33,934 nucleotides of DNA from an uncultured Deferribacterales bacterium. Lineage in GTDB: Bacteria > Chrysiogenota > Deferribacteres > Deferribacterales > Mucispirillaceae. Both the position numbers and the translations under genes were made by a program. The DNA lies in assembly GCA_947853665.1 (NCBI GenBank), contig CANTXF010000067.1, positions 1-33,934 of the forward strand. Reading direction: 5' to 3'. The notes below the pieces were generated by a model, which saw nothing but the letters and a program-made list of their open reading frames with translations, did not search any database and had not been told where the DNA came from. Below are positions 5,572 through 33,934 of this stretch, piece after piece; positions within the stretch are counted from its first letter, which is position 1; each line of letters begins with the position of its first letter.

Positions 5572-6042
5572 ATGGACAAAAAAAATTTTATATCGTTTAT
5601 CGTATGCTTCGTTATCTGTTTTACGGCTGGAATTATAGCCTCCTATCCGGTAAGCGGCAGCCAGGTATGGTACGAAACACTAAGCCTTTCCTACCTTAAC
5701 CCGCCGGAATGGCTTTTCGGGCCCGTATGGGGCGTGCTGTATCTTCTTATGGCCGTTGCGGTATGGCTTGTAACAAAAAGACGCGCAAATCCGTATTACC
5801 CCGCCGCGGTCATTCTTTTTGCCGTACAGCTGGTGCTGAACGTGGCATGGACGTACATATTTTTCGGAGCGATGAATCCCGAATACGCCTATATAGAAAT
5901 ACTGCTGCTGGACGCGGCCGCCCTTTTAACCGCCGTGGTATTCGGCAGAATATCGAAAGCCGCCCAATGGCTGATGCTGCCTTATATTATATGGCTTGGG
6001 CTTGCAACTTATCTTAACTGGCACGTAATGTACTACAATTAA
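5572..6042 (+). CDS. tspO: TspO/MBR family tryptophan-rich sensory membrane protein
   Basis: A 156-residue inner-membrane protein with five predicted transmembrane helices, the usual length for the family. The family block NPPEWLFGPVWGVLYLLMA is intact at residues 43-61, followed by the Trp/Asn-containing fourth helix (VQLVLNVAWTYIFF) and YLNWHVMYYN at the end. TspO proteins bind porphyrins and related ligands and act in tetrapyrrole, redox or stress responses; the role here is not shown by context. The start is supported by AGAGG about ten bases upstream of ATG 5572. The gene appears monocistronic: its own promoter lies upstream and the hairpin array follows. Confidence 0.95.
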   Translation: MDKKNFISFIVCFVICFTAGIIASYPVSGSQVWYETLSLSYLNPPEWLFGPVWGVLYLLMAVAVWLVTKRRANPYYPAAVILFAVQLVLNVAWTYIFFGAMNPEYAYIEILLLDAAALLTAVVFGRISKAAQWLMLPYIIWLGLATYLNWHVMYYN

Positions 6043-6080: not shown

Positions 6081-6160
6081 TACCGGTTCCTCCGTGTAAA
6101 AAACGGAAGCCGCTTAATATAACCGGCTCCTTTTATACGCGCGGGGCGAAACAGAGCAAA
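6081..6160. repeat. Degenerate left edge of the hairpin array
   Basis: Contains imperfect inverted repeats: CCGGTT at 6083-6088 with AACCGG at 6121-6126, and an inner CTCCGT/ACGGAA pair. The A-rich lead and T-rich exit match the array units to the right, but the linker words are not preserved. It may also act as the tspO terminator. Confidence 0.4.
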
Positions 6161-6435
6161 AACGGGAGCGGGTTTATTTATCCCCGCTCGTTTTCTATCC
6201 ATCAAAACGGGAGCGGGTTTATCTGTCCCCGCTCCTTTGGGAGCAAGCTCGGATCAGAAAAGCGGGACGCGCAATATTTGTCGCGCGTCGCTTTCTGTCC
6301 ACCAAAGCGGGACGCGCATAATCTGTCGCGCGTCGCTTGAGAGCAAGCTCGGAATAGAAACGTCTGCACTAATAAAGCAGACGTTTTCTGTCCACCAACA
6401 TCCGCAAAAAATAAAGCGGATGTTTTCTGCCCTCA
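6161..6435. repeat. Array of paired hairpins: two covarying 100-base units plus a third pair
   Basis: Unit X (6161-6260) and unit Y (6261-6360) are each exactly 100 bases and align without gaps. Each has a hairpin, linker L1 (TTCTRTCCAYCAAA), a second hairpin with the same stem, and linker L2 (GAGCAAGCTCGGAAYAGAAA-like). Stem cores are GAGCGGG/CCCGCTC in X (6166-6172 with 6183-6189; 6211-6217 with 6228-6234) and GACGCGC/GCGCGTC in Y (6266-6272 with 6283-6289; 6311-6317 with 6328-6334). All four loops are 10 bases. In three of the four hairpins a GG on the 5' side is bulged between the core and a 3-4 base outer stem. A third pair follows: AACGTCTGC/GCAGACGTT (6360-6384) and AACATCCGC/GCGGATGTT (6397-6424), with loops ending in TAAA. 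Each hairpin is flanked by A on the left and T on the right, as in bidirectional terminators. It lies in a 543-base gap with no credible gene. Confidence 0.85.
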
Positions 6436-6521: not shown

Positions 6522-6548
6522 TTGACTTACCCCCCCCCGTGCTATTAT
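6522..6548 (+). promoter_or_regulatory. Promoter with a nine-C homopolymer in its spacer
   Basis: TTGACT at 6522-6527 and TATTAT at 6543-6548 flank a 15-base spacer that includes a run of nine C (6530-6538). The predicted start site is about 30 bases before the lipoprotein ATG at 6586. With 11 C the spacer would reach the 17-base optimum, so slippage in the tract would change promoter strength. Confidence 0.6.
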
Positions 6549-6585
6549 GCGCCATGTCGTTTAAAAATATTTAAGGGGGTATTTT

Positions 6586-7146
6586 ATGTCTGAAAAAATT
6601 TTGTTCTTTATACTGCTCTGCCTGAGCGTATTTGCCATAGCGGGCTGTAATTCGTCCGACGACGTGAAAATGATGCGCAAGGACGAATTCATACAGCTTG
6701 TTAACGGAAAAGATGCAGCCGACACGCTTAATCTGGGGGAGCAGGTAATGCCGGATATCTATAACGATAATCCGTACAGGAAAATCCCTTCCATAAATGT
6801 CTCCAACACCAACGGAGAAGATTCTCTTGTAATAATATTCAATATAAACGAAAGCTCCTATCATATAGCGGAGGAAGCGGAAACAGTGCTTAAAACGGGC
6901 GCCGATAATCAGCCGGTGGCTCTGGCCCTGTACCTTGGCGGCAAATTAACCCCTGGAGAAACTTATAAGGGGAGCTTTGTCGTAATTACCGTGCCCCAGA
7001 GTAAAATGGAATATTTCAATTATATTTCGGAGGAGCAGATGTACGCGTTATACGCCGATTATCTGGGAGATAAATACGAATACGAATTTATCGCTTCGGA
7101 AAAGGATATAATTTACTCCGGCAGAGGCGGTGAAAATATTAACTGA
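6586..7146 (+). CDS. Lipoprotein of unknown function with a possibly phase-variable promoter
   Basis: A 186-residue lipoprotein. Residues 1-20 are a signal peptide II (ILFFILLCLSVFAIAGC) with lipobox AIAGC and acylated Cys20; the following NSSDD is compatible with outer-membrane sorting. The mature part is acidic and beta-rich, with Tyr/Glu-rich segments toward the C-terminus (YISEEQMYALYADYLGDKYE). I do not recognise the family. The RBS AAGGGGG sits about eight bases before ATG 6586. It is preceded by the poly-C promoter and followed by a strong terminator, so it is a single-gene unit. Confidence 0.75.
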   Translation: MSEKILFFILLCLSVFAIAGCNSSDDVKMMRKDEFIQLVNGKDAADTLNLGEQVMPDIYNDNPYRKIPSINVSNTNGEDSLVIIFNINESSYHIAEEAETVLKTGADNQPVALALYLGGKLTPGETYKGSFVVITVPQSKMEYFNYISEEQMYALYADYLGDKYEYEFIASEKDIIYSGRGGENIN

Positions 7147-7175: not shown

Positions 7176-7210
7176 AGCGGCCGGCAAGTTATGCCGGCCG
7201 CTCTTTTTTT
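7176..7210. terminator. Rho-independent terminator after the lipoprotein gene
   Basis: An 11-bp perfect stem AGCGGCCGGCA/TGCCGGCCGCT (7176-7186 with 7192-7202), loop of five, T-run 7204-7210 on the plus strand and A-run on the other side, so it can work in both directions. Confidence 0.9.
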
Positions 7211-7258
7211 ATAATCTGCGCTGTTTAGCCTAAAAGCAGTAAAATTCAGCAAGGTAAT

Positions 7259-7305: not shown

Positions 7306-10300
7306 TCAGTCCTGCTTTTTAATACCGGCAAAATCGATTTTTTCCGCAAGCTGGCGAAGCACTCCGTCCCTTCTGGCCCGTTTTATGTCCGCAAGCTTTA
7401 CCATATCCTCATATTTGGAGGAATCGAGCTTTTTGGTAATTCTGAAACGGTTTTCCCCGGCCATAAAGGCGGAAAGGTCTCCAGTGGGAGGCCTGCTGTC
7501 TATCTGAAGCGGATTTTTGCCTTCGTCCATCAGAGCAGGGTTAAACCTAAGCAAAGGCCAGTAACCCGCCTGAACGGCTTTTCTCTGCTCCTCCACGCCG
7601 GTAGTCATATTTATGCCGTGGGCTATGCAGTGGGAATAAGCTATTATAAGAGACGGGCCGTCAAAAGCCTCTGCTTCGGTAAAAGCCTTTATACACTGCA
7701 CCGGATTGGAGAGAGAAACCTTAGCTACGTATATGCTGCCGTAAGTCATGGCTATCATGGCAAGGTCTTTTTTCTCGTGAGTTTTGCCGGATATGGCAAA
7801 CTTGGCGGAAGCCCCTATCGGCGTGGATTTAGAAGCCTGCCCGCCGGTATTGGAATAAACCTCCGTATCGAGAACCAGCACGTTTACGTTTTCGCCGCCG
7901 GCAAGCACATGGTCGAGGCCGCCGTAGCCTATATCGTAAGCCCAGCCGTCGCCGCCCAGCACCCAAACGGACTTAGGCGCAAGATAATCGGCTATGCTTA
8001 AAAAATCCTCCGCTTCCTGAGTTTTAACTGACCTGAGCTTTTCTTTAAGCTCCTTGATCCTGCCCCTTTGAAGCTCGATATTATGCTGGCCGGAAAGGTC
8101 CGCGTTCATAATATCATCCGCCAGAGAACCAAGGCTCTCTTTAAAAGACTCAAGATACTGCCTTGCCTTAAGGCTGAAATAATCCGCCGCGAGCCTCATA
8201 CCGTAGCCGAATTCCGCATTATCCTCAAAAAGCGAGTTGGACCATGCCGGGCCTCTGCCGTCCGACCTGGCGCAGTAGGGCGTGGTGGGCAGGTTGCCTC
8301 CGTAAATGGAGGAGCAGCCCGTAGCGTTCGCAATAAGCAGCCTGTCCCCGAAAAGCTGGGTAAGGAGTTTAATGTAAGGCGTTTCGCCGCAGCCGGCGCA
8401 GGCGCCTGAAAATTCAAAATGATGGGGGGCAAGCTGGCTGCCTTTAAGGGTGGTTTTATTATAAGCGTCTTCGGGCAGCTCGGGTATGGTAAGAAAGAAA
8501 TTGAAATTGGCGGTTTCCTGCTCGCGCAAAGGTATCTGCGGGGCCATTTCAAGAGCCTTTTTAGTGGGGTCCTGCTTGCTTACGGCCGGGCAGTTGTACG
8601 CGCAGGCGCCGCAGCCCGTGCAATCCTCAGGGGCTACCTGTACTGTGGCCTCAAGAGAGGCGAATTCCTTACCCCTTGCCTCCGTATGCTTAAAAGAAGC
8701 GGGAGCGTCTTTAAGGACGCCTTTATCGTAATATTTCATACGCACGGCGGAATGGGGGCACACAAAGGAGCATATTCCGCACTGTATGCATATATCCGGG
8801 TCCCATACGGGTATATTTACGGCTATATTGCGTTTCTCGAAGCGGGACGTGCCTATGGGCCACGTTCCGTCGGCAGGCATTTCGGAAACTTTTATCTCGT
8901 CCCCTTTGTTTTCCACAAGTTTGGCGGTTACCTGGCGCACGAAAACCGACGCCCTGCCATCCGTAAGGCAGCCGTTTATAAGGCGGCAGGCCTCGCCTGA
9001 AGGCTTAAAGTCCGCCGGATAGTTTACTTCCGCAACCATTTCCGCCCCGGCGTCCGCGGCGGCGGAGTTTTTGGCCACTATTTCGTCTCCGTATTTGCCG
9101 TAGGTTTTCTTTATGGCGTTTTTTATGGAGCCGAGAGCCTTCTCTATTGGTATTATGCCGGAAATCTTGAAAAACGCCGTCTGGAGTATTACGTTTATAC
9201 GGGAGCCCAGACCCAGATCCTCCGCTATTTTGACCGCGTCCACTACGAAAAAGCGGGCCTTTTTAGCGACTATCTCAGATTTTACCTTATCCGGTATGGC
9301 GTTCCAAACTTCCTCCGCCGGGTACTGGCTGTTAAGCAGAAATAATCCGCCCTCCTTAAGCTGGGAAAGAATATCGTATCTTTCAAGAAAGCTGAAATTA
9401 TGGCACGCTATGAAATCCGCCTTCTGCACGAGGTAGGAGCTTTTTATGCGCCTGTCCCCGAAGCGGACGTGGGACGTGGTCATGGAGCCGGCCTTTTTGG
9501 AATCGTACACGAAATAAGCCTGGGCGTTTTTGCCCGTCTCGCCGAAAATAATTTTAGCCGTGTTTTTGTTGGCTCCCACTGTTCCGTCGGAGCCAAGGCC
9601 GTAAAACATGGCGTTATATACTCCGTCGGACGGAATAACCCATTCCGGGTCGAAATCGAGGGAAGTATTGGTAACGTCGTCGTCTATGCCCACCGTAAAG
9701 GCGTGCTTCGGCTCGGCGGCTTTAAGGTTATCGTAAACGGCTTTTACCATAGCCGGGGTAAAATCTTTGGAACCCAGGCCGTACCTTCCGCCCACTATAA
9801 GCGGGTATTCAGTAAAAGACGTGATTTTGCGGGCCATAGCTTCGCCCACCGCAGTGCGCGCTATAAGGTAGAGAGGTTCGCCAAGGGAGCCTGCCTCTTT
9901 CGTCCTGTCGAGAACGGCCATTGCTTTTACGGAAGCGGGTATGGCTTTTATAAAATCCTCCAGCGGGAAAGGCTGGAACAGGCGTATCTTTATAACGCCG
10001 GTCTTTTCTCCAAGGCCGTTAAGATATTCGCAGGTTTCCTCGGCCACGTCGGCCCCGGAACCCATTATAACGATCACCCTCTCTGCGTCCGGCGCGCCGT
10101 AATATTCCGCAAGGCCGTATCTGCGCCCGGTCATCGCAGCGAATTTTTCCATTTCCTCTTTCATCAGGGCCGGAACGGAATCCACATATTTATTTACCGT
10201 CTCCCTGCCCTGAAAAAACACGTCGGGATTCTGGGAGGTGCCCTTTATGGACGGTCTGTCGGGAGAAAGGCTGCGTGAGCGGTGCTCCCTTACAAGGCCG

Positions 10301-10890
10301 TCGTCTATCATCTCTTTCATATCTTCCCGGGAAAGCTCCTCCACTACGGCAAGCTCGTGAGAGGTGCGGAAGCCGTCGAAAAAATGAAGCACGGGCACTC
10401 TGCTGCGCAGAGACACGGCCTGCGCGATAAGGGCTCCGTCCATAACCTCCTGAGGGTTGGAGGAAGCAAGCATTGTCCATCCGCAGGAGCGGCACGCCAT
10501 AACGTCCGAATGATCCCCGAAAATGGAGAGAGCCTGGGCAGCAAGAGCCCTTGCGCTCACATGGAATACAGTCGGCGTAAGTTCGCCGGCTATTTTATAC
10601 ATATTGGGTATCATAAGCAGAAGCCCCTGGGAAGCCGTGAAAGTAGTAGTCATGGCTCCCGCGCTCAAAGCCCCGTGAACAGTTCCGGCGGCTCCCGCTT
10701 CAGACTGCATCTCGGTAACTATCGGCACCGTGCCCCATATATTTTTTTCGCCCGCGGCGCTTTTTTCGTCCGCTATTTCTCCCATAACGGATGAGGGGGT
10801 AATAGGATATATCGCTATCACCTCGTTTACGGCGTGGGCTACGTGGGCGGCGGCCATGTTGCCGTCCATAATGGATTTTTTGCGTGGCAT
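7306..10890 (-). CDS. nifJ: Pyruvate:ferredoxin (flavodoxin) oxidoreductase, single-chain
   Basis: A 1194-residue homodimeric-type PFOR, normal length. It oxidises pyruvate with CoA to acetyl-CoA and CO2 and reduces ferredoxin in the cytoplasm. Visible in order: the N-terminal YPITPSSVMGEIADE domain I motif, a central gamma domain, two 4Fe-4S ferredoxin motifs (CIQCGICSFVCP near residue 702 and CTGCGACAYNCP near 757), the proximal-cluster Cys pair CAGCGET, and the thiamine diphosphate motif GDGWAYDIGYGG near 982 ending in SNTGGQAS. The start is ATG 10890 (MPRKKSIMDGN). A TTG four codons upstream is in frame, but the GGAGG RBS lies inside that extension, so it is not used. It has its own promoter and stands alone. 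Confidence 0.97.
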   Translation of the reverse strand: MPRKKSIMDGNMAAAHVAHAVNEVIAIYPITPSSVMGEIADEKSAAGEKNIWGTVPIVTEMQSEAGAAGTVHGALSAGAMTTTFTASQGLLLMIPNMYKIAGELTPTVFHVSARALAAQALSIFGDHSDVMACRSCGWTMLASSNPQEVMDGALIAQAVSLRSRVPVLHFFDGFRTSHELAVVEELSREDMKEMIDDGLVREHRSRSLSPDRPSIKGTSQNPDVFFQGRETVNKYVDSVPALMKEEMEKFAAMTGRRYGLAEYYGAPDAERVIVIMGSGADVAEETCEYLNGLGEKTGVIKIRLFQPFPLEDFIKAIPASVKAMAVLDRTKEAGSLGEPLYLIARTAVGEAMARKITSFTEYPLIVGGRYGLGSKDFTPAMVKAVYDNLKAAEPKHAFTVGIDDDVTNTSLDFDPEWVIPSDGVYNAMFYGLGSDGTVGANKNTAKIIFGETGKNAQAYFVYDSKKAGSMTTSHVRFGDRRIKSSYLVQKADFIACHNFSFLERYDILSQLKEGGLFLLNSQYPAEEVWNAIPDKVKSEIVAKKARFFVVDAVKIAEDLGLGSRINVILQTAFFKISGIIPIEKALGSIKNAIKKTYGKYGDEIVAKNSAAADAGAEMVAEVNYPADFKPSGEACRLINGCLTDGRASVFVRQVTAKLVENKGDEIKVSEMPADGTWPIGTSRFEKRNIAVNIPVWDPDICIQCGICSFVCPHSAVRMKYYDKGVLKDAPASFKHTEARGKEFASLEATVQVAPEDCTGCGACAYNCPAVSKQDPTKKALEMAPQIPLREQETANFNFFLTIPELPEDAYNKTTLKGSQLAPHHFEFSGACAGCGETPYIKLLTQLFGDRLLIANATGCSSIYGGNLPTTPYCARSDGRGPAWSNSLFEDNAEFGYGMRLAADYFSLKARQYLESFKESLGSLADDIMNADLSGQHNIELQRGRIKELKEKLRSVKTQEAEDFLSIADYLAPKSVWVLGGDGWAYDIGYGGLDHVLAGGENVNVLVLDTEVYSNTGGQASKSTPIGASAKFAISGKTHEKKDLAMIAMTYGSIYVAKVSLSNPVQCIKAFTEAEAFDGPSLIIAYSHCIAHGINMTTGVEEQRKAVQAGYWPLLRFNPALMDEGKNPLQIDSRPPTGDLSAFMAGENRFRITKKLDSSKYEDMVKLADIKRARRDGVLRQLAEKIDFAGIKKQD

Positions 10891-10955
10891 TAATCCCTCC
10901 AAAAAACTTGTATTTTCAATCCCGTTAAACTTTATTCGTCGTCTGGCAATCTTAT

Positions 10956-27923: not shown

Positions 27924-28676
27924 TTACGGGCAGACGAGGCTTTGAGCCTTTACTGCAAATTTTTCGTAAGGCTCGAATATTACCCCGTCCTCATTTATGG
28001 AGGCTCCCGGAACAGTAAGAGCGTCGGGGTCCATAACGGCCGCCGTGTCGTTTATTTTACGCATTTTCACGGTAACTGGCACGTCCCCCAGAGAAGCGCA
28101 TGAAGCTACGCCGCCGTTTTCGTCGAGGGACGCAACGATTTTATCGGAAACAGTCAGATTTACCGTAAGTATTTTAGTGGCGTTATCGTAAGTCATATAA
28201 AAGGAAGATGCGGGATAATCCTCCGTAAAAAGAAGATTGCGCCCTTTTACGCCGGTAACGCCGTTATTTATATTTACGCCGCCCTCCGTAATATTGGCGG
28301 CGGGAACCGGCTCGTAAGCCGTATATTGGTAAACCTCGGCGGGAGCCTCCCTTATAAGAAGCGCGCGCAGAAGCTGGAGCTGGGTTTTCAGGGCGTAGGT
28401 TTCGTTATCTTTATTTATAACTCCGTAACCGCCCACAAGATAAACGGTTTCGCATGAGCCGGATAAAGACGCCGCCTGGCAGTCGTTGGAAAGAACGCGA
28501 CCCGCCGCGGAAGTTTCAAAAAAATCTATCTGATAAGAACCGGTGAGAGTATCCGCCGCCGTCAGGTCTATCGGGGTGATCTTAACGGAAGAATCGTCCC
28601 CGCCGCTGGAACAGCCGTAAAGCGCAAGAGCGCACAGCGCGGTATATATAAAAAGCGGCAGTATTCTTTTATTCAT
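27924..28676 (-). CDS. Lipoprotein with one copy of a DxLxGxYxIxxF domain
   Basis: A 250-residue lipoprotein. Signal peptide with lipobox ALYGC, then SSGGDDSS. The mature part is a single domain beginning DTLTGSYQIDFF and including NDC, a KTQLQL strand, a TAYEPVPAA strand, GVKGRNLLF and a closing VTVKMRKIND block. The same blocks occur twice in the neighbouring protein at 28828-30207, so these are paralogues. No known family recognised; beta-rich, likely surface or periplasmic. ATG 28676 is chosen because GGGAG lies nine bases upstream; an ATG five codons earlier has no RBS. Confidence 0.75.
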   Translation of the reverse strand: MNKRILPLFIYTALCALALYGCSSGGDDSSVKITPIDLTAADTLTGSYQIDFFETSAAGRVLSNDCQAASLSGSCETVYLVGGYGVINKDNETYALKTQLQLLRALLIREAPAEVYQYTAYEPVPAANITEGGVNINNGVTGVKGRNLLFTEDYPASSFYMTYDNATKILTVNLTVSDKIVASLDENGGVASCASLGDVPVTVKMRKINDTAAVMDPDALTVPGASINEDGVIFEPYEKFAVKAQSLVCP

Positions 28677-28737
28677 TGGTATTTCTCCCATATCTCCCCG
28701 GCAAAAAGCATAAAAATAATATTAACAGGCAGGAAGT

Positions 28738-28827: not shown

Positions 28828-30207
28828 TTAATTCTCAACGTTTGTCGGATTAGCAACAAAACCGGAAAAAGCATTGTTGCCATCGCCATCATCATAATTT
28901 TCAACGAACAAAACGTTCGGATCTAAAGTGGAAGGGTTATTATTTACCTTCACTGCGTCCACACGTGTGTGAGCATCAAGCTTTAACATTCCCCCCAAAA
29001 CACTTTTATCCTTTAATGTCATGCTTACATGAAACGTACCGTCGGAATTTATGGAAAATTCAAAAGGAGACTGTCTGTTCCATGTATTTTCAATAAGGTT
29101 ACGCCCGGTAACGCCAACAACCGCTCCAGTACCAGCATTGCTCGGATTGGTAACGGGAACAGCCTCATATACAGTAACCTGATATGTATCGTTAGCAGCA
29201 AGAGCGCCCATGGTTTTAAAATAAGGGCCGTACATTTGGAGTTTGCTGGTCGCATATAAATTACCGTCTTTTTCTTCAACTACTAATTTACCGCCCAGAA
29301 TCTGCGTTCCTGCCGAGCACATCGACATAGTATCGGCATACTGAATACCCAAATCGGACTGTTTCATTTTATCGCAATCAGTTGAAATTATTGCAAATGG
29401 ATTTCCTTCCCTATCCGCCACGGTGCCAAAGTAAGAAATATTATACGTGCCAACCAATGTTTCGGGTTTAGCCATATCTGGAACAGTAACCCAAACGCCA
29501 TTGTCGAAATTACCGGCGAAACCAGCAATTGAGTCGTCCACAAGCGTATTGGGGTCAAGGGGGTTACCGGAGTCGTTGCTCACCTTGCGTAACACTACCT
29601 TAGTAACTGTGGGTACCGGGCTGCTCAGATCAATAGTGGAAACTATATTGCCTCCGGCATCAACGGAAAAACTGAACGACGCGGCGCTGTCAGAAGTCAT
29701 TTCAATCATATTGCGGCTCTCAACGCCTTCAACAACGGTTCCGCTTTTATTTATATTTTTATTAACGGCGTCGATGGAATCGGCGTTTACCGGAGCGTAA
29801 GCGGTATAATTATATTTGCTCGAAGCGGCCATGCTTCCGTAAACAGGATCCTCAAAAATACCGCCCCAAAGCTGTATTTTCGTGGTTACGGAATATTTGT
29901 CTCCGTTTTTGGTTATGGTAGCCATACCTTTCATGCTGGCGTTGGCGGAAGGCTCGCAGGAAACGGCCCCCAGGTTTTGTTTAGCGTAATCGCAGTCGCT
30001 CGTTATCTCCATAGTAAGCGTGGAAATTGTGGCGCTTGAAAGAAAATAGTCAATCTCGTAAGTGCCCACTAGAGTATCGGGCGATTCAAGATCTACCGGC
30101 GTGTAGGCAAGCGGAGCCGGGCCGTCGTCATCGCTGCTGCCGCATCCGGTAATTATAAAAGAACACAAAGCCGCCAGAACGACGGACAATAACAACTTCT
30201 TCTTCAT
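28828..30207 (-). CDS. Lipoprotein with two tandem copies of the DxLxGxYxIxxF domain
   Basis: A 459-residue lipoprotein. Signal peptide LLLSVVLAALCSFIITGC with lipobox IITGC, then GSSDDD. Copy 1 starts at DTLVGTYEIDYF, copy 2 at ETLVGTYNISYF. Both continue with an SDC/TDC motif, a Cys 15-20 residues later, a (T)KIQLWG/SKLQMYG strand, TAYAPVNA/TVYEAVPV, VESRNMIE/VTGRNLIE, and a closing VTKVVLRKV/VDAVKV strand before LDPN. The paired Cys suggest a disulfide in each domain. ATG 30207 has GGGAGG upstream; an earlier ATG would put 24 polar residues before the signal peptide. Fewer ATA codons than neighbours, slightly unlike the rest of the window. Function unknown. Confidence 0.75.
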   Translation of the reverse strand: MKKKLLLSVVLAALCSFIITGCGSSDDDGPAPLAYTPVDLESPDTLVGTYEIDYFLSSATISTLTMEITSDCDYAKQNLGAVSCEPSANASMKGMATITKNGDKYSVTTKIQLWGGIFEDPVYGSMAASSKYNYTAYAPVNADSIDAVNKNINKSGTVVEGVESRNMIEMTSDSAASFSFSVDAGGNIVSTIDLSSPVPTVTKVVLRKVSNDSGNPLDPNTLVDDSIAGFAGNFDNGVWVTVPDMAKPETLVGTYNISYFGTVADREGNPFAIISTDCDKMKQSDLGIQYADTMSMCSAGTQILGGKLVVEEKDGNLYATSKLQMYGPYFKTMGALAANDTYQVTVYEAVPVTNPSNAGTGAVVGVTGRNLIENTWNRQSPFEFSINSDGTFHVSMTLKDKSVLGGMLKLDAHTRVDAVKVNNNPSTLDPNVLFVENYDDGDGNNAFSGFVANPTNVEN

Positions 30208-30284
30208 TAACGTTTTCCTCCCTGGAAAGAGCAGGCTACCGCGCGTTTGCCAGAAAGCCTTACCCCTATTTTGAAGCAAGAAGC

Positions 30285-33833: not shown

Positions 33834-33934
33834 CGGTAAATTGGATGCGTCACGTTTTGGTGGATAGAAAAAATATGCTTTATTTATGCAGATGTTTCTA
33901 TTCCGAGCTTGCTCTCAAGCGACGCGCGACAAAT
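33834..33934. repeat. Inverted second copy of the hairpin array (cut by the window end)
   Basis: Read on the minus strand, 33931-33894 is identical over 38 bases to 6324-6361 (half of a Y-type hairpin, linker L2 and the first base of the next hairpin). It is followed by a third-pair type hairpin with mismatched stem (loop ATAAATAAA) and linker L1 (TTCTATCCACCAAA, 33867-33854), after which the similarity fades. The array continues beyond the window. Confidence 0.85.

Follow-up and report, generated by a model that had tools for sequence, protein, structure and literature searches.

A nine-C tract in a promoter spacer as a candidate phase-variation switch of a lipoprotein gene in a Deferribacterales bacterium

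The 33,934-nucleotide stretch of Deferribacterales DNA analysed here (the window) carries a promoter-like site at 6522-6548, TTGACT-TACCCCCCCCCGTGC-TATTAT, in which the two hexamers are separated by a spacer that holds a run of nine C. The question raised by this locus is whether changes in the length of the run switch the lipoprotein gene behind it. A sequence-only reading had proposed a phase-variable promoter of the type known from opc and porA, and this proposal finds strong comparative support, because 9-mers form a discrete class in the genome, because the promoter architecture occurs only in this bacterial family, mostly in front of lipoprotein genes, and because tract length differs between orthologous promoters. 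Judged from these sequence comparisons, the C9 tract very probably acts as a simple-sequence-repeat switch within a promoter of the sigma-70 type, and on the best reading the window gene would belong to a large contingency repertoire.

The promoter site and its gene

Both the nine C bases between TTGACT and TATTAT (C at 6530-6538) and the 15-base spacer (6528-6542) had been counted correctly in the earlier reading, to which the extended −10 TG at 6540-6541 is an addition (Table 1). The site was missed by a generic promoter scan because that scan takes only spacers of 16-18; the site lies 38 nt upstream of the lipoprotein gene. C/G runs in the window number 126 of length 4, 27 of length 5, seven of length 6, one of length 7 and one of length 9, with no second run of at least 8 anywhere in the window, where the longest A/T run is 8. 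A search for RNA structure in the leader gave no signal (z = −0.16), and an Rfam search of the window returned no match.

Table 1. Features of the C-tract promoter, its gene and the flanking genes in the window
Feature	Position	Strand	Basis or remark
TspO gene	5572-6042		Upstream neighbour; Pfam TspO_MBR
−35 hexamer TTGACT	6522-6527	+	5/6 against consensus; read from sequence
Promoter spacer TA-C9-GTGC	6528-6542	+	15 nt, non-C part 6 nt; sequence
C9 tract, presumed slippage site	6530-6538	+	One of 64 genome tracts of at least 9
Extended −10 TG (TGn; here TGC-TATTAT)	6540-6541	+	Sequence
−10 hexamer TATTAT	6543-6548	+	5/6 against consensus; read from sequence
Ribosome-binding site AAGGGGG	6573-6579	+	Sequence
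Lipoprotein gene, 186 aa, without known family	6586-7146	+	Lipobox IAGC, Cys21 at 6646-6648
Intrinsic terminator, 11-pair stem and T run	7176-7212	+	
Pyruvate:ferredoxin oxidoreductase-like gene	7306-10902	Opposite strand	Downstream neighbour

Because an intrinsic terminator follows it, the lipoprotein gene constitutes a one-gene unit. For pyruvate:ferredoxin oxidoreductase, the best named match in a search, at 63%, was in a Deferribacterales MAG. The encoded protein begins with a short signal peptide ending in a lipobox cysteine (MSEKILFFILLCLSVFAIAGC), the feature by which bacterial lipoproteins are recognized, and its earlier designation as a lipoprotein is borne out by this peptide and by the IAGC lipobox with Cys21. 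The window promoter is thereby predicted to drive an envelope- or surface-type protein. The 186-aa protein matched nothing in Pfam or NCBIfam, and no relatives of it were found in 60 related genomes, genome_contigs or viral_contigs; since the gene is without an ortholog, its own tract length is not comparable between species. A weak match to the lipoprotein L048, which stands behind another C9 promoter, was obtained at E = 0.002 in a set of 9,084 sequences and is a hint only, and an AlphaFold2 model from the single sequence reached a mean pLDDT of 40, which is unusable.

A hairpin repeat that is dispersed over the genome (AAAACGGGAGCGGG...CCCCGCTC; 62 matches) and often located at contig ends is present in the window at 6100-6400, a short way upstream of the C9 promoter, and at 33857-33934. 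It also adjoins the C9 tract at C29:143.

C-spacer promoters in the genome and its relatives

Five further C9 promoters were found in the same genome (L035, L036, L048, L063 and L081), that of L063 being a perfect TTGACA-15-TATAAT, and four others (L047, L056, L087 and L088) have G instead of C on the coding strand. Spacers are mostly 15, with 16 in L035 and 14 in L088, which has G8; in L047 and L087 a spacer of 15 fits only with a weak −10. In six of the own-genome members the start codon lies 37-47 nt past the tract. The downstream products comprise four lipoproteins (the window gene, L036, L048 and L087, the last with PKD domains), a probable outer-membrane barrel below the Pfam cut-off (L063), a phosphoethanolamine-transferase-like protein that matches Pfam Sulfatase and falls below NCBIfam cut-offs (L056), a mannose-1-phosphate-guanylyltransferase-like protein (L047), a nitrous-oxide reductase (L035) and, less surely assigned, Obg (L081) and a dehydrogenase-like gene product (L088).

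The pattern TTGACN{1,7}C8N{1,6}TANNNT was searched in 60 genomes, with the reversed pattern as a control. It matched seven times in the own genome and 3-11 times in each of nine of the ten genomes of one sister genus. No match came from the tenth (57% complete), from the other sister genus (four genomes) or from any other family among the 60 genomes; the reversed pattern matched once in total. Across these 60 related genomes, the C-spacer promoter architecture is found only in the bacterial family of the window.

The most frequent form is TTGACATT-C9-ATGATATAAT. The 66 tabulated promoters are retrieved sequences with recurring orthologs and not 66 independent events; 53 of them have a tract length of 9, six of 8, six of 10 and one of 11. 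With the C tract left out, the spacer adds up to 6 nt in 53 of the 66, divided before and after the tract as 2+4, 3+3, 4+2 or 1+5, and this constancy of the total despite the varied split argues that total spacer length, not a sequence block, matters. A spacer of 15 is the commonest in the class (46/66), and the extended −10 TGn is present in 47/66. A lipobox follows at least 42 of the 60 promoters with a called downstream ORF, and the 60 downstream proteins sort into 12 related groups and 15 singletons.

Tract length varies between orthologous promoters. C8 (L262, L243) stands against C9 (L279) upstream of proteins that are 92-94% identical, C10 (L228) against C9 (L277) at 83% identity, and C11 (L231) against C10 (L278) at 50% identity. 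Such differences show change over species time, population-level switching being a separate matter.

Two lipoproteins encoded elsewhere in the window (27924-28691 and 28828-30279) are homologous (E to 1e-25) to sister-genus lipoproteins whose promoters have C8, C10 and C11 spacers. Upstream of the window copies stands a promoter-like TTGACA-16-TACAAT without a C tract, and this gene family looks switched in the sister genus and unswitched here.

The chief alternative to a length-dependent switch is that the most frequent form is a fixed recognition element for a regulator or a special sigma factor, with selection holding the tract at 9 and the genes forming an ordinary lipoprotein regulon. Length 9 and spacer 15 do dominate, occurring together in 44/66 promoters, the sister-genus flanks are near-uniform (TT...ATGA or GTGA), and lipoproteins are most of the targets. 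However, coding-strand G also serves in the four own-genome promoters named above, some members with a tract of 8, 10 or 11 are otherwise intact, orthologs differ in tract length, and the same peak at 9 is found in coding tracts (described below), where no promoter is read and both frame states occur. A fixed element is therefore considered unlikely.

Tracts across the genome and in reductase genes

The genome (2.43 Mb), of which the window is contig 67, contains 64 C/G tracts of at least 9, where 4-5 are expected, so that the earlier remark that no other such homopolymer was present stands for the window and fails if extended to the genome. Exactly 9 was found 60 times, 10 three times and 11 once, and exactly 8 nine times, the counts having been resolved from overlapping matches (142 to C8/G8 and 69 to C9/G9). 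Markov models of order 2 and order 3, with the window as training sequence, predict 3.2-3.9 exact 9-runs and 16-18 exact 8-runs for the whole genome; an order-1 model predicts 31.5 exact 9-runs and fits the observed fall-off of runs poorly. In 243 kb of retrieved sequence plus the window, runs fall from 234 at length 5 to 27 at 6 and one at 7, followed by 60 at 9, these stretches having been picked for their tracts, with only the fall-off at 5-7 as the unbiased part. Because 60 9-mers are observed against 3-4 expected while 7-mers are nearly absent, the 9-mers represent a discrete class, and the tract in the window is of a length in excess of what the genome background predicts.

The placement of tracts is likewise uneven. 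Of 142 strand-tracts, 10 have a TTGAC that ends 0-7 nt ahead of them, where the composition of the 48 nt alongside predicts 0.55, and the arrangement TTGACT-C9-TATTAT is not chance. It is possible to suppose that mutational bias makes C/G tracts everywhere, that some fall in promoters and that the tract at 6530 is without selectable effect, and many other tracts do lie at places without evident switch function. This excess between −35 and −10 over random placement, together with the conserved spacer total and the lipoprotein targets, nevertheless makes such an origin very improbable. Hardly credible at all is the idea that errors of assembly or base calling cap homopolymers at 9. In its favour, almost every tract is exactly 9 and the assembly consists of 68 contigs. 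Against it, one sister genome that forms a single contig likewise peaks at 9 and includes several tracts of 8, 10 and 11, the own genome does have tracts of 10 and 11, and a cap would not explain the rarity of 7-mers and 8-mers.

Loss of mismatch repair as the cause of the tracts is countered by the presence of mutS1 in the own genome and in most relatives. Against a switch stands the narrow length peak (60 of 64 at 9), which could mean that the tract is rather stable.

Many of the tracts outside the promoter class fall within coding sequence. The largest group among these is found close to the lipobox in proteins about 900-1250 aa long that have a Tat-type motif (SRRxFxK). The typical form is YGCSKDDGGEIIY-G9, with the tract usually just past the lipobox and, in L208, just before it. 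The proteins carry Molybdopterin and Molydop_binding domains and match a DMSO/selenate reductase A-subunit model below its cut-off; by these matches they are predicted DMSO-reductase-superfamily enzymes. In the own genome six are in frame (L203-L208, all G9) and six out of frame (L209-L213 with G9 and L073 with G10). Sister-genus orthologs carry this tract at the matching position, the loci from relatives being L282-L294, and one reductase has G10 and is in frame in the genome G010, whereas four sister genomes have G9 out of frame. Another sister genus possesses the reductases, and its C9 tracts are mostly few. Because ON and OFF frames both occur at 9, this length is probably a mutational balance point, not a chosen state.

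Sorting of all tracts by codon score proved too crude for the remaining tracts and was set aside. In six cases (L043:2001, L061:2001, L080:2001, L083:2001, L085:2001 and L086:2001) a C9/G9 is no more than about 10 codons away from the point where a long ORF stops, and in L043, L061 and L080 another frame runs on over 167-521 codons, which suggests that the tract splits genes there.

Proposed mechanism and relation to known systems

A switch of the kind favoured here would operate through slipped-strand mispairing at replication, by which one C is gained or lost. With a non-C total of 6, the number of C would set the distance between −35 and −10 at 15 nt for C9, 16 for C10 and 17 for C11, and the altered spacer would change the rate of transcription of the lipoprotein gene, giving rise to a mixed population of cells differing in lipoprotein amount. 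The scheme presumes a high slippage rate at 6530-6538 and expression that tracks spacer length. Ordinary TTGACA/TATAAT sites common to two sister genomes have spacers of 15 (n = 2), 16 (n = 4), 17 (n = 4) and 18 (n = 1), and because these are mostly 16-17, C9 would be expected to be the lower state and C10-C11 the higher; C9 as the weak state and C11 as the optimum are a matter of arithmetic. An optimal spacer of 16-17 is the likelier, and 15 is also possible. An extended −10 can tolerate poor −35/−10 spacing. Because this element, so common in the class, may give activity at a spacer of 15, the switch would probably be graded rather than all-or-none.

Homopolymers between −10 and −35 are known switches of porA, fetA and opc in Neisseria meningitidis and are thought to act through altered sigma-factor binding (PMC2791445). 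The window locus resembles these systems in the position of its homopolymer and in the apparently surface-type product of its gene, and shares a C-tract with opc in particular (PMC3960869); a difference in tract length between orthologs was seen only in other members of its class. In contrast to the Neisseria genes, the present ones belong to another phylum and other gene families, and they form a near-identical promoter class of 3-11 per genome, mostly before lipoproteins, with C9 as the mode, a spacer of 15 and usually an extended −10. At the Neisseria nadA gene, repeat number likewise tunes transcription, as is proposed here, but that repeat lies upstream of the promoter and distal to it, rather than within its spacer, and acts by way of a repressor and RNA polymerase contacts (PMC2791445).

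Campylobacter jejuni has 29 polyG/polyC tracts, mainly within reading frames, three of them being intergenic (PMC4965091). The present genome is similar in having many C/G tracts in a small genome and coding tracts that would switch the frame. It differs in that about ten tracts are promoter spacers and that the main coding set consists of molybdopterin reductases, not surface-structure genes; MutS, a further point of comparison, is present in the genome of the window.

Three features set the present lineage apart from these systems: a family-wide promoter design whose total spacing stays constant, the employment of that design for lipoproteins, and the set of reductases. The main text of the genome paper on Mucispirillum schaedleri, which is probably of the same family, contains neither 'phase' nor 'homopolymer' (PMC5285517), and a literature search of incomplete coverage found no report of phase variation in this lineage. 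With somewhat more confidence than doubt, the family, probably of gut-associated Deferribacterota, can be proposed to harbour a large unreported contingency system in which TTGACAnn-C9-nTGnTATAAT promoters (tract plus 6 nt) randomly tune lipoproteins, and a dozen exported molybdopterin reductases are switched at random by G9 frameshift tracts behind the lipobox. If this is true, single cells would differ both in their surface and in the electron acceptors that they can respire, and random switching of reductases would amount to metabolic bet-hedging that is not confined to the surface. The constancy of tract plus 6 would provide an unusually clean natural series relating spacer length to promoter strength, in a lineage far from Neisseria and Campylobacter that has about 60 tracts of a kind found in more than one genus.

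Among the relatives, the genomes G037, G055 and G024 gave 417, 208 and 53 C9 matches, respectively, and no match to the C-spacer promoter pattern. A sequence of the same form, TTGACA-ATA-C9-AGG-TATAAT with a 15-nt spacer, was also observed at L281:36-62, on an IMG/VR contig of 5001 bases with microvirus-like ORFs.
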